Shown here: in pieces, positions 3,528 to 11,562 of the stretch
Layout: every line of letters starts with the position of its first letter
Position numbering within the stretch: position 1 is the stretch's first letter
Source: a virus
DNA: 35,363 nucleotides
Reading direction: 5' to 3' (one strand)
Virus record (IMG/VR): IMGVR_UViG_3300005436_000022
Span: 1-35,363 of that record
Made by a program: the position numbers and the translations under genes
Notes under the pieces: generated by a model
Told to the model about the DNA's origin: nothing
The model's input: the letters and a program-made list of their open reading frames with translations, nothing else
The model's database searches: none

Positions 3528-3727
3528 CCGAAGCCGTCGAACTCGCTGTTCACGACGCCGCCGAGGAAGTCGCGCCACTCAGCGGCCGTGTAGGCAATGA
3601 CGACCCCGGGATCGGCGGCGTTGCGCACCTGGACGCCGCCGGAGATGAACCGGACCTCGACGGGGCTGCCGCCGGAGGAAAGGCTCGACCTGAGCCATTC
3701 ATCACTCTTCGTGTTGTCGCGTGACAT
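3500..3727 (-). CDS. DUF397-family small protein
   Basis: 75 residues. W-L-R-S-S-L-S-S-G-G followed by VEVRF, VQVRNAADPG and TAAEWRDFLGGV..GEFD-like ending is the DUF397 signature, a family common in Streptomyces and relatives, usually beside an XRE-type regulator and sometimes described as a regulator partner or antitoxin-like protein. Here no helix-turn-helix partner is adjacent. ATG at 3727 is chosen: it lacks a ribosome site but lies 7 nt after TAAGAT, so the mRNA may be leaderless; a TTG at 3757 would lie inside the terminator stem. The 3' end overlaps the convergent repeat gene by 28 bp, and transcription of that gene would run antisense through all of DUF397 to the terminator at 3757-3793. 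Likely captured from an actinobacterial host. Confidence 0.8.
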   Translation of the reverse strand: MSRDNTKSDEWLRSSLSSGGSPVEVRFISGGVQVRNAADPGVVIAYTAAEWRDFLGGVVNSEFDGFGQTPTEAGG

Positions 3728-3734
3728 ATCAGTT

Positions 3735-3740
3735 ATCTTA
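3735..3740 (-). promoter_or_regulatory. -10 box of leaderless DUF397 promoter
   Basis: On the minus strand TAAGAT lies 7 nt before the ATG at 3727, the TANNNT spacing expected when the start codon is the first transcribed base. There is no convincing -35, and the upstream side is the terminator hairpin. Confidence 0.45.
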
Positions 3741-3756
3741 TGCAATAATCGTCGCA

Positions 3757-3793
3757 AGCACCCGGATTTGGCGGCCCACTCCGGGTGCTTTTC
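3757..3793 (+). terminator. Rho-independent terminator
   Basis: AGCACCCGGA (3757-3766) pairs with TCCGGGTGCT (3780-3789), a 10-bp perfect stem with a 13-nt loop, followed by TTTTCT. It would end the plus-strand transcript of the repeat gene after it has crossed the DUF397 gene, and it isolates the downstream tRNA-like island. Confidence 0.7.
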
Positions 3794-3872
3794 TAATCCC
3801 CGCGCACCTCAATCGCATCGTCTGGTACGTTATGTCCCGAGCGCAAGCTGAGGTTCAGGCTGAGGCTGACAC

Positions 3873-3976
3873 GCTCCCACATTGACCGGAAGGCCCTGGT
3901 TCGACTCCAGGTCCCGGCACGCATGCCGGGATAGCTCAGGGAGAGCGCCCGGAGGGGGCCTCAGGATCAGGATGTG
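3873..3976 (+). tRNA. Circularly permuted tRNA-like gene A (3' half before 5' half)
   Basis: The 3' half comes first: variable region ending C48 (3894), T-stem CCTGG/CCAGG (3895-3899/3907-3911) with loop TTCGACT, 3' acceptor TCCCGGC (3912-3918) and A73 (3919). After 5 nt (CGCAT) the 5' half begins: acceptor GCCGGGA (3925-3931), T8, A9, D-stem GCTC/GAGC with a minimal A14 G15 G18 G19 A21 loop, and G26 (3947). The two acceptor strands pair 7/7 and G15-C48 is a proper Levitt pair. An anticodon-stem pairing CCGG (3949-3952) with CCGG (3886-3889) is possible. No U33 falls in that loop, so the anticodon is unassigned. Outer pairing is possible: GCTCCC (3873-3878) with GGGGGC (3954-3959), or CTGAGGC (3860-3866) with GCCTCAG (3958-3964). 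CCA is not encoded. The span given is approximate. A tRNA remnant or tRNA mimic is the alternative. Confidence 0.6.
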
Positions 3977-4019
3977 ACGCTCGAAGCTGAAGCTCGCGCC
4001 AGCGTGTGCAGATCCACCT

Positions 4020-4124
4020 GGCGGTCGCAGTCGACAAGGAGTTGCGGGTTCGAGTCCCGCCCGGGGCGCTCCGTGCCCTGGTGGTCCAATGGCAAGACGC
4101 CTTCCGTTCAGGATGACGACCGCC
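4020..4124 (+). tRNA. Circularly permuted tRNA-like gene B (3' half before 5' half)
   Basis: 3' half first: AAGG (4036-4039), variable region ending T48 (4043), T-stem GCGGG/CCCGC (4044-4048/4056-4060) with loop TTCGAGT, acceptor CCGGGGC (4061-4067), G73 (4068). After 6 nt (CTCCGT) the 5' half starts: acceptor GCCCTGG (4075-4081), T8, G9, D-stem GTC/GAC with loop AATGGCA (G18G19), G26 (4099), CCTT (4100-4103). Acceptors pair 7/7 with one G-U; A15-U48 is a proper Levitt pair; CCTT/AAGG starts the anticodon stem. The flanks outside the tRNA pair perfectly over 8 bp: GGCGGTCG (4020-4027) with CGACCGCC (4117-4124). The anticodon is not resolved. The 5' half runs into TTCAGGATG, a motif shared with gene A. 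CCA is not encoded. Confidence 0.6.
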
Positions 4125-4173
4125 CGACAGCCGCTGCACGCGGACCTGGTGCCAGGAGCGAACCTGATAAGTC

Positions 4174-4191: not shown

Positions 4192-4224
4192 GCCCCGGCG
4201 CACACGGCAAAGGTGCGTCGGGGC
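4192..4224 (+). other. Long stem-loop in the leader of the 4251 gene
   Basis: GCCCCGGCGCAC (4192-4203) pairs with GTGCGTCGGGGC (4213-4224): 12 bp with one G-U and a 9-nt loop. No T-tract follows, so it is either a GC-rich terminator for the tRNA-like transcript or a leader structure 26 nt before the ATG at 4251. Confidence 0.45.
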
Positions 4225-4250
4225 ACCACATCACCCAGACGGGGAAAACC

Positions 4251-5009
4251 ATGACTCAGACGCTCGGGCAGGTAGTGGCGGCGGAGGCGGCGGCGCGGGC
4301 CGAGGCCAACAAGCGCGGCGGGAAGCTGCACAAGGACAGCCAGAAGGCCGACCTCTTCGAGGGGTTCGACACCAACTACTCGCCGTTCGCCGAGGCAGAG
4401 GACGGGAGCGACGCCCGCGCGCTCCAGCGCCCCCCGGAGGGCAAGCGCGTCCAGCTCATCGCCGAGGACCTGCTGGGCGAGTTCATGAGCGAGATGCGCA
4501 GCGCCATCGACCTGGCCGCCGTCAAGGACGAGGCTAACTGCCGGGCGAAGGCCGACGTGACCATGCCCGACGGCCTGGTGCTGCTGCGCGCGGTCCCCGC
4601 CACCCACCTGCTGCACATGGAGAAGGTGCTGGAGGACTTCGGCACCTTCGTCGCCAAGCTGCCGGTCCGCGACCCGGCCATCGACTGGACGTACAGCACC
4701 GACGACCGGCTGGCGCACTCGCCGGAGACCTTCACCAACAGCGAGGAGGTCAGGCAGAGGGCGCTGGTGATCGTCCCGCCGACGCAGTACCAGGCGGGCA
4801 CGGGCACCACCTACCAGGAGCGCGTCGCCGTCGGCCGCCGCACCACCGTCCGGCACACCGGGGCGCTGTCGGTGCAGCGCAAGCGCGACCTGGAGCGGCG
4901 CGTGGCGGAGCTGAAGGTCGCCTTCAAGCAGGCCCGCGAGGTGGCCAACCGGGTTGACGCCGCCGACGTGCACGAGGCCGACATCCTGTTCGGCTATATC
5001 CTGGGCTAG
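4251..5009 (+). CDS. DUF7873-like conserved phage/actinobacterial protein
   Basis: 252 residues; ATG at 4251 with GGGGA a few bases upstream. The sequence follows a conserved family I recognise from actinobacterial and mycobacteriophage genomes: GGKLHKDSQKADLFEG near the N-terminus, a central LAAVKDEANCRAKADV and AVPATHLLHMEKVLEDFGTF block, KLPVRDPAIDWTY, a charged coiled coil (RDLERRVAELKVAFKQARE) and a closing AD-I-LFGYI-G. Length is normal for the family. It is soluble with no membrane segment. Function unknown; it is usually encoded by temperate and lytic phages outside the virion module. It stands alone between the tRNA-like island and a strong terminator. Family name from memory of the motif order. 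Confidence 0.8.
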   Translation: MTQTLGQVVAAEAAARAEANKRGGKLHKDSQKADLFEGFDTNYSPFAEAEDGSDARALQRPPEGKRVQLIAEDLLGEFMSEMRSAIDLAAVKDEANCRAKADVTMPDGLVLLRAVPATHLLHMEKVLEDFGTFVAKLPVRDPAIDWTYSTDDRLAHSPETFTNSEEVRQRALVIVPPTQYQAGTGTTYQERVAVGRRTTVRHTGALSVQRKRDLERRVAELKVAFKQAREVANRVDAADVHEADILFGYILG

Positions 5010-10536: not shown

Positions 10537-11562
10537 CTAGCTCTTGGTGATGCTCGCCAGGCCGCGTGGGTTGAGGATCGACATCGCGATCATCTCGTCG
10601 AACACCCAGCCCTTCCAGAACGCCTCGACGTTGTGGTTCTCCTCCACGTCGAGGGAGTACAGGATGGGGAAGACGCCCAGGAAGTTCGGCTCCGGGGCCA
10701 GGAAGATCTTCGCCTGCGGGACGATGATCGAGCGCTGGATCTGGAACTCGCCGAAGCTGGTGATGGTCTCGCCGGCGACCACCCGGTCCTTGAAGGCCCA
10801 GCCGGTCTGGTTGATGTCCCACCGGAACATGTCGCGGTAGTCGAAGGGGTTGATCAGGATGCGGGCCGACGGAAGCTCGTGCAGGTCGGTCATCGCCACG
10901 GCCGAGTAGAGGCTACCGGGAGTGAGGTAGCCGCTCGCTTCCGTGATGTTGTGATTGGGGGTGACCACGTGGTCCGGCCGGGTGGCGTAGTCGGTGATCG
11001 CCGCCTGGAGGAGCACCAGCAAGCGGGCGTCCTCCTGCTTGAGGATCGCCTGCTTGGTCTCGTCCTGGGCCTGCTCGACCGCGTTGATGCGCAGGTAGAA
11101 GAGGTCTTCCTTGCGGATCGCGGGACGCGAGGCGATGCGGAAGAACCGCACCGGGATGCGCTTGCCCTCGAACGGGGTCACGCGGACCTCGCCCTCGGTG
11201 CCGCTCAGGATGTAGGCCTGGCCCAGGTCGTCCCATACGTCGTACTCCACGGGAGTACCAGGAGTAACCGGGTCCTCAACCAGGACGTTCCGGACAATGC
11301 CCTGGTACCGGAGCTTGAGCTGGATGGGGCCGACCATCCCGACGCCCAGGCGGCGGAAACCGTGCATCTCGTCGCTGAGGATCAGCGCCATCTTCCGCAC
11401 CTTGGCCTCGCGGGTCAGCGAGACCCCGTTGGTGCGGGCGCGGCGCGCCTCGATCTGGGCAACGTAGTCGTCGCTCTTGCGCGATGCCACGCGGGGCCGG
11501 AGGCCGCCGCCGGGAGCCAGCGCCAGTTGCCCGCCGGCCGTAGTGGTCGCCAGCTCGGTCAT
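10537..11562 (-). CDS. Major capsid protein (HK97-like fold)
   Basis: 341 residues; ATG at 11562 with AGGAAGGA upstream. The sequence shows the layout of a phage major head protein: an N-terminal basic arm (RVASRKSDDYVAQIEARRART), a beta-rich middle (IPVRFFRIASRPAIRKEDLFYLR), a central helix (VEQAQDETKQAILKQEDARLLVLLQAAI), and a conserved end with LPSARILINPFDYRDMFRW, GEFQIQRSIIVP, KIFLAPEPNFLGVFPI and VFDEMIAMSILNPRGLASI. That ending (A-domain strand and P-loop) is typical of HK97-type capsids of actinobacterial and SPO1-like phages. It forms the icosahedral shell. It lies downstream of the protease gene, in the standard order. No separate N-terminal delta domain is obvious; scaffolding is probably in the protease gene product. 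Confidence 0.85.
   Translation of the reverse strand: MTELATTTAGGQLALAPGGGLRPRVASRKSDDYVAQIEARRARTNGVSLTREAKVRKMALILSDEMHGFRRLGVGMVGPIQLKLRYQGIVRNVLVEDPVTPGTPVEYDVWDDLGQAYILSGTEGEVRVTPFEGKRIPVRFFRIASRPAIRKEDLFYLRINAVEQAQDETKQAILKQEDARLLVLLQAAITDYATRPDHVVTPNHNITEASGYLTPGSLYSAVAMTDLHELPSARILINPFDYRDMFRWDINQTGWAFKDRVVAGETITSFGEFQIQRSIIVPQAKIFLAPEPNFLGVFPILYSLDVEENHNVEAFWKGWVFDEMIAMSILNPRGLASITKS

Follow-up and report, generated by a model that had tools for sequence, protein, structure and literature searches.

Bacterial Y RNAs are circularly permuted mimics of tRNA, as illustrated by the structure PDB 6CU1, which ARTEMIS superposes on tRNA by circular permutation (PMC11472068). In the YrlA class, Rsr/Ro60 is bound by the basal stem, the tRNA-like head is modified by DusA and TruB, and PNPase is tethered (PMC8394870). 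Phage proteins with the TROVE domain of Ro60 are known and the cellular TROVE protein works with a tRNA-like partner (PMC7824862); YrlA is mentioned for phages in a further article (PMC7765460), and a decoy role has been suggested for it (PMC7790460). Here we analyze, by computation throughout, two RNA units and an adjoining DUF7873 gene in the IMG/VR virus record IMGVR_UViG_3300005436_000022, a 35,363-base fragment of a phage genome, which is called the window. The units, A and B, represent the two RNA types, T1 and T2, of a DUF7873 cassette that is probably a Ro60-independent, Y-RNA-like ribonucleoprotein (RNP), with DUF7873 on the RNA stems and the heads recruiting tRNA-binding factors.

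As in YrlA (RF02553; PDB 6CU1), each unit consists of a permuted head (T-arm, acceptor hairpin, and D-arm) on a long basal stem with internal loops, the RNA genes adjoin a protein gene, and the arrangement occurs in both bacteria and phages. Two permuted tRNA-like units had been placed here by an earlier inspection of the letters (the sequence-only reading), and its coordinates proved exact when re-read from the window, with 7/7 acceptor pairs in each unit (one G-U in B). The features of the cassette are as follows:

3843..3995, + strand: unit A, a T1 Y-RNA-like RNA (extent of the T1 model match; outer helix from 3839)
3839..3843, + strand: 5′ strand of the outer helix P0 of unit A, GAGCG, pairing with CGCTC at 3978-3982 as read from the sequence
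3860..3866, + strand: stem strand CTGAGGC of unit A, within the CTGARR-repeat stretch, pairing with GCCTCAG at 3958-3964
3895..3911, + strand: T-arm of unit A, CCTGG-TTCGACT-CCAGG
3912..3918, + strand: 3′ acceptor strand of unit A, TCCCGGC, covarying with 3925-3931
3919-3924, + strand: acceptor linker of unit A, ACGCAT, without CCA
3925..3931, + strand: 5′ acceptor strand of unit A, GCCGGGA, 7/7 with 3912-3918
3932..3946, + strand: D-arm of unit A, TA-GCTC-AGGGA-GAGC
4012..4126, + strand: unit B, a T2 Y-RNA-like RNA (T2 model match)
4020..4027, + strand: 5′ strand of P1 of unit B, GGCGGTCG, pairing with 4117-4124 and compensated in relatives
4036..4039, + strand: putative 5′ strand of P2 of unit B, AAGG, which may pair weakly with CCTT at 4100-4103, in the position of an anticodon stem
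4044..4060, + strand: T-arm of unit B, GCGGG-TTCGAGT-CCCGC
4061..4067, + strand: 3′ acceptor strand of unit B, CCGGGGC
4068-4074, + strand: acceptor linker of unit B, GCTCCGT, without CCA
4075..4081, + strand: 5′ acceptor strand of unit B, GCCCTGG, 7/7 with 4061-4067 including one G-U
4082..4098, + strand: D-arm of unit B, TG-GTCC-AATGGCA-AGAC
4117..4124, + strand: 3′ strand of P1 of unit B, CGACCGCC, partner of 4020-4027
4251..5009, + strand: DUF7873 (PF25283) gene, 252 aa, just downstream of the RNA pair (Pfam match)

The region of the units matches two IMG/VR contigs, L002 and L003, at 85-88% identity and a third, L004, at about 71%, and both units are retained in all three. The acceptor of unit A changes from GCCGGGA/TCCCGGC in the window to GCCGCCC/GGGCGGC in L004, and the P1 helix formed by the flanks of unit B changes from GGCGGTCG/CGACCGCC to GGTGGCCG/CGGCCACC in L003 and to GGTGACCG/CGGTCACC in L004, again with compensation; the unit A stem CTGAGGC/GCCTCAG has a single mismatch in L004. 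Retention of the arms with loss of acceptor complementarity is what the sequence-only reading had named as counting against it. Complementarity is instead kept by compensating changes of the kind it had proposed to look for in homologous loci, so that its own test fails to refute the structure. The same comparison exposed a stem where a tRNA would carry its anticodon arm; both these pairing flanks (P1 of unit B) and the conserved protein gene accompanying the RNAs had been missed.

Pairing was also assessed with procedures blind to complementarity. With T-arm and D-arm anchors only, 7/7 acceptor pairing was found in 34/52 candidates beside DUF7873, compared with 1% of non-cognate pairs; with motif anchors only, P1 formed 7-8 of 8 pairs in 15/23 cases, compared with 2.4% of non-cognate ones. 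In the outer helix of T1, the sequence CGCTC/TGCTC is nearly invariant and hence offers scant variation for a general pairing test, and the helix is suggestive only; rare T1 variants do compensate P0 (GGGGT/ACCCC, GGACA/TGTCC, and GAAGCG/CGCTTC). A strict scan for permuted units, run on both strands, returned two for the actual sequence of the window and, for 300 first-order-Markov versions of it, none.

The two types differ in their stems. T1, the type of unit A, has CTGARR-type repeats in its 5′ flank and a conserved CTCAGRYTMTCGCTC...CTCAG in its 3′ flank, and in T2, the type of unit B, P1 lies between AUCGACC and UUAAACG, which form an internal loop. In a consensus built from 31 T2 sequences, the window's clade being excluded, compensatory change occurs at 23/25 pairs, including 9/9 pairs of a P1 of 9 bp, and pairing is seen in 97.5% of cells, falling to 39-50% with partners slid. 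The 9-bp P1 is continuous and is followed by an interior region of 15-20 nt before the head; P2 is absent from this consensus and is therefore weak in unit B. Covariance models made without the window's clade recovered both units at full length: the T2 model (R1) matched unit B with 76.0 bits (E 1.3e-15, positions 1-122) and the T1 model (R2) matched unit A with 54.4 bits (E 1.2e-10, positions 1-145). These models also match other permuted heads, mostly over the head portion only. Sequence comparison establishes the RNA fold and its division into two types.

Known RNA families do not capture these units at their own thresholds. In the window, Rfam gave no match at gathering score and ARAGORN found no ordinary tRNA; among T1/T2 units of 20 chromosomal loci, none exceeded any Rfam cut-off (0/20). 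In a permissive Rfam scan, the best match was YrlA at 4021-4126 (28.6 bits, E 4.6e-4; gathering 69), with a weaker one on unit A (3888-3949, 20.4 bits). The best YrlA match beside the Ro60 gene of Arthrobacter phage Atuin is also below gathering (31.7 bits), and at a loose threshold the model is noisy as a genome-wide detector, with matches in 13/14 control genomes. T1/T2 units from viral and phage loci most commonly have an acceptor linker of 7 nt, and in 37/88 related units the linker encodes a discriminator followed by CCA (NCCA) directly after the 3′ acceptor strand, against 107/437 ordinary tRNAs of the same loci.

The protein of the window is a clear member of its family, with a Pfam score of 181.6 bits for a cut-off of 27 (E 2.7e-53), and DUF7873 is matched by all 68 aligned homologues. 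It is the only family that Pfam reports; the TROVE profile did not match the protein, nor did NCBIfam or PADLOC, and DUF7873 is not mentioned by name in the literature searched. Its AlphaFold2 model has a mean pLDDT of 94.2 and a pTM of 0.72. The best VIA-align match (Z 7.7, rmsd 7.5) is within the background range, and Ro60, a HEAT ring with a von Willebrand factor A (vWA) domain, is absent among the Foldseek and VIA-align matches listed, all of which are weak. The possibility that DUF7873 is a disguised Ro60 or an RNA ligase was set aside as improbable, since searches of PDB and BFVD yielded nothing convincing.

The RNAs and the gene are found together far beyond the window. DUF7873 of isolate phages infecting Gordonia, Rhodococcus, and Arthrobacter is encoded inside or next to tRNA islands, and permuted units missing from the annotation lie close by. 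In a first scan of 80 viral DUF7873 loci, 58 had at least one adjacent permuted unit; nearly all viral units are on the strand of DUF7873, usually 30-300 bp from it, and often two stand about 150 bp apart. Among 80 chromosomal loci sampled from at least 512 DUF7873-matching stretches of a species collection, 77 have an adjacent unit with 7/7 acceptor pairs and 50 have two; an ordinary tRNA is present in only 26, and no other broadly conserved same-strand neighbor gene was seen in these loci. The reverse search, in which a T2 sequence pattern was sought in IMG/VR without reference to the protein, gave 45 matches, of which 19 were unit-like (at least 4/5 T-stem and at least 6/7 acceptor pairs). 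DUF7873 adjoins 18 of these 19 on the same strand (17 within 107-271 bp and one at 994 bp) and none of the 26 others, and TROVE adjoins none of the 45; the nineteenth unit-like match has poor P1 pairing and is probably due to chance. The linkage of the RNAs to DUF7873 thus holds in either direction of search. The carriers are scattered: chromosomal ones belong to Actinobacteria, Planctomycetes, Myxobacteria, Acidobacteria, and others, and a sample across one phylum contained DUF7873 in 3/149 genomes, the query counted.

The closeness to YrlA raises the possibility that the units are ordinary Y RNAs supplied to a host or phage Ro60, with DUF7873 as an accessory. Phage pairs of Ro60 and Y RNA are real, the permuted head and the overall stem plan are the same, and TROVE is also encoded in 5/34 viral DUF7873 contigs. 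The loci of phage Ro60 (TROVE, or "Ro-like RNA binding protein"), such as those of Arthrobacter phage Atuin and Streptomyces phages GiJojo and BRock, likewise combine the protein gene with at least one permuted tRNA-like RNA next to or within a tRNA island; they differ by their TROVE protein, by stems mostly of UACUUC type, and by RNAs that precede the protein gene in most of the loci examined. We collected Ro60-linked units from phages of Arthrobacter, Streptomyces, Gordonia, Brevundimonas, Xanthomonas, Rhizobium, and Caulobacter (29 scan matches with at least 6/7 acceptor pairs, some probably spurious); there were no convincing permuted units near the Ro60 genes of Neville and crAss001. UACUUC is present in the 5′ stem of 18/29 units of this set and of 0/88 DUF7873-linked units, and no unit of the set carries either of the T1/T2 signatures, UUAAAYG and CTnA repeats. 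Where both proteins occur in a contig, the RNAs partition between them: in G019 (about 10 kb between the genes) and G014 (about 60 kb), TROVE has UACUUC units next to it and DUF7873 has T1/T2 units. A pair of sister Arthrobacter phages is divided likewise: Atuin has permuted units of its own at a Ro-like gene and lacks DUF7873 at the syntenic position, and in Mimi, T1/T2 accompany DUF7873 and TROVE is absent. No TROVE match was obtained in the window, its close relatives, a 162-kb relative, or the NiceHouse, Phendrix, Mimi, and Guey18 records. Among 40 bacterial genomes with DUF7873, TROVE exceeds the cut-off elsewhere in 17, several Streptomyces genomes having both proteins, and is not detected in 22, so that the cassette appears neither dependent on Ro60 nor exclusive with it. 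T1 and T2 are therefore separated from Ro60-type RNAs by stem signals (CTGARR repeats in T1, AUCGACC/UUAAACG in T2, and no UACUUC), and from YrlA by their partner (DUF7873 instead of Ro60/Rsr), two paralogous types in fixed order, linkers that often encode NCCA, and scores below the Rfam cut-off. Supply to Ro60 is, in our opinion, rather unlikely.

The sequence-only reading had proposed permuted tRNA genes; the circularly permuted tRNA-like fold of structured RNAs has stood, whereas the identity as tRNA genes has not. Transcripts of such genes would be cut in the acceptor linker by RNase P and 3′ trimming, yielding a joined or a two-piece tRNA, which would suit the complete and tRNA-like T, D, and acceptor arms and the excess of NCCA in linkers. 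Permuted tRNA genes of red and green algae and of Thermofilum also have the 3′ half first and a short linker joining the acceptor strands; in them a bulge-helix-bulge is present and the anticodon loop is rebuilt after circularization. Here, the junction offers no way to form an anticodon loop, no anticodon is recognizable, the compensated 9-bp P1 occupies the place of the loop, the consensus contains no bulge-helix-bulge, and the units are steadily paired with a protein gene; a tRNA splicing endonuclease is not known from bacteria. Genuine tRNA genes are accordingly a highly improbable explanation. The view that no phage case was accepted had overlooked the Y RNA (YrlA) class, phage members of which are mentioned in PMC7765460. 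Another known arrangement, permuted two-piece tmRNA, resembles the units in having a tRNA-like domain whose acceptor strands come from both sides of a processed linker; the region of the window, however, has no tmRNA match in gathering or permissive Rfam scans, and Gordonia phage Phendrix carries a separate ordinary tmRNA (L014:4063-4591, 89 bits in Rfam), missing from the feature table of its record. An antagonism module, in which T1/T2 would restrain DUF7873 as a toxin or sensor, as in type III toxin-antitoxin systems, or would be decoys for nucleases, is distinctly unlikely. It would fit a cassette of one gene and two RNAs with no other broadly conserved same-strand neighbor, located in phage tRNA islands, where decoys for tRNA-cutting nucleases would be suitable, and a decoy role has been proposed for YrlA (PMC7790460). 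Against it, DUF7873 is unmatched in PADLOC and NCBIfam and has no convincing match to a known ribonuclease fold, and the RNAs are two distinct structured molecules with different stems rather than tandem repeats of one. Finally, remnants of a shuffled tRNA cluster or tRNA fragments at an attachment site have a negligible probability. Related phages do have large tRNA islands, in which a T-arm followed by the D-arm of the next gene is common, but no unit arose in the Markov versions, acceptors and P1 are compensated, and most of the chromosomal loci with units lack a nearby tRNA gene. Accidental adjacency is ruled out by the covariation together with the tRNA-free chromosomal loci, and attachment-site fragments by the recurrence of units beside DUF7873 with changing sequences. 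We also rejected excision of the halves by a permuted group I intron or a ribozyme, since Rfam matched neither kind of element in the region and the flanks pair in a conserved stem.

On the reading as a Ro60-independent, Y-RNA-like RNP, the DUF7873 cassette would apparently be another system like that of Ro60 and Y RNA, one that dispenses with Ro60. Each RNA is a Y-RNA-like tRNA mimic in which a long basal stem replaces the anticodon arm and the permuted remainder of the tRNA (T-arm, acceptor hairpin, and D-arm) forms a head upon it. DUF7873 may bind the type-specific stem signals, namely the CTGARR repeats of T1 and the AUCGACC/UUAAACG internal loop of T2, as Ro60 binds the stems of Y RNAs. 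The head may then recruit proteins that recognize tRNA elbows and acceptors, by analogy with DusA and TruB modification and PNPase tethering in YrlA, and the RNP could guide RNA processing or decay, or serve as a tRNA decoy. Several observations weigh against this interpretation. The DUF7873 model has no clear fold match in PDB or BFVD and the protein contains no recognized RNA-binding domain; instead of holding the RNAs as Ro60 does, it could act on them as an enzyme. In the first scan, 22/80 viral DUF7873 loci had no unit. In the window's clade, the UUAAACG motif of T2 is lost and the order is RNA-RNA-gene, instead of gene-RNA-RNA elsewhere. A Ro60 gene may also lie elsewhere in this phage, the window being a 35-kb fragment, and cooperation of the cassette with Ro60 is possible because 17/40 of the bacterial DUF7873 genomes encode TROVE elsewhere.

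A broader proposal, to which we give about an even chance, is that DUF7873, T1, and T2 constitute an independent class of tRNA-mimic RNP, parallel to Ro60-Y RNA and present in phages and in hundreds of bacterial species, some of whose RNAs in part of the family may open at the NCCA linker to give a two-piece end for enzymes recognizing CCA or acceptors. With NCCA in 37/88 linkers, some members of the family may thus yield such a processed, two-piece tRNA-like end. Ro60 is the partner by which Y RNAs are defined, and here the same RNA architecture recurs with a different, unstudied protein; this would separate the purpose of the permuted tRNA mimic from the role of Ro60, assign a function to a so far uncharacterized domain, and account for stretches without annotation in the tRNA islands of phages. 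It has long been asked which factors the tRNA-like head of Y RNAs brings in, and the question becomes directly testable because Streptomyces is tractable and several of its genomes encode both DUF7873 and TROVE.

Some minor observations concern loci with Ro60. One unit beside TROVE in contig G019 (L107:258-411) combines a UACUUC-type stem with a T1-like head, AGTG...TAGCCCAAC..GGCAGAGGCAGC, and scores 58.8 bits with the T1 model; it is possibly a head swap between the Ro60 and DUF7873 systems, and such a swap would point to one factor served by the heads of both. In Atuin (L104, about 10890-11240), there are apparently three tandem permuted units beside the Ro-like gene, unannotated, two being confirmed by the scan at 7/7 and the third by eye. 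The control genome of Deinobacterium chartae encodes both TROVE and DUF7873, and is thus another lineage with both systems.

Other features of the window, around the cassette and farther away, are listed below:

3721..3749, + strand: sigma-70-like promoter GTGACA-17-AATAAT upstream of the cassette, a consensus match only (10/12 positions, shuffle mean 0.0)
3721-3795: the promoter match and, directly after it, a long hairpin AGCACCCGGA...TCCGGGTGCTTTT, which L003 shares and which possibly acts as an attenuator or terminates a transcript from upstream
4193-4226: GC-rich hairpin GCCCCGGCGCAC...GTGCGTCGGGGC between unit B and DUF7873, retained in L003 and L004
12642-16517, - strand: gene of a 1291-aa protein with DUF7178 and an N-terminal PHROG match to head maturation protease, apparently a fused multi-domain gene
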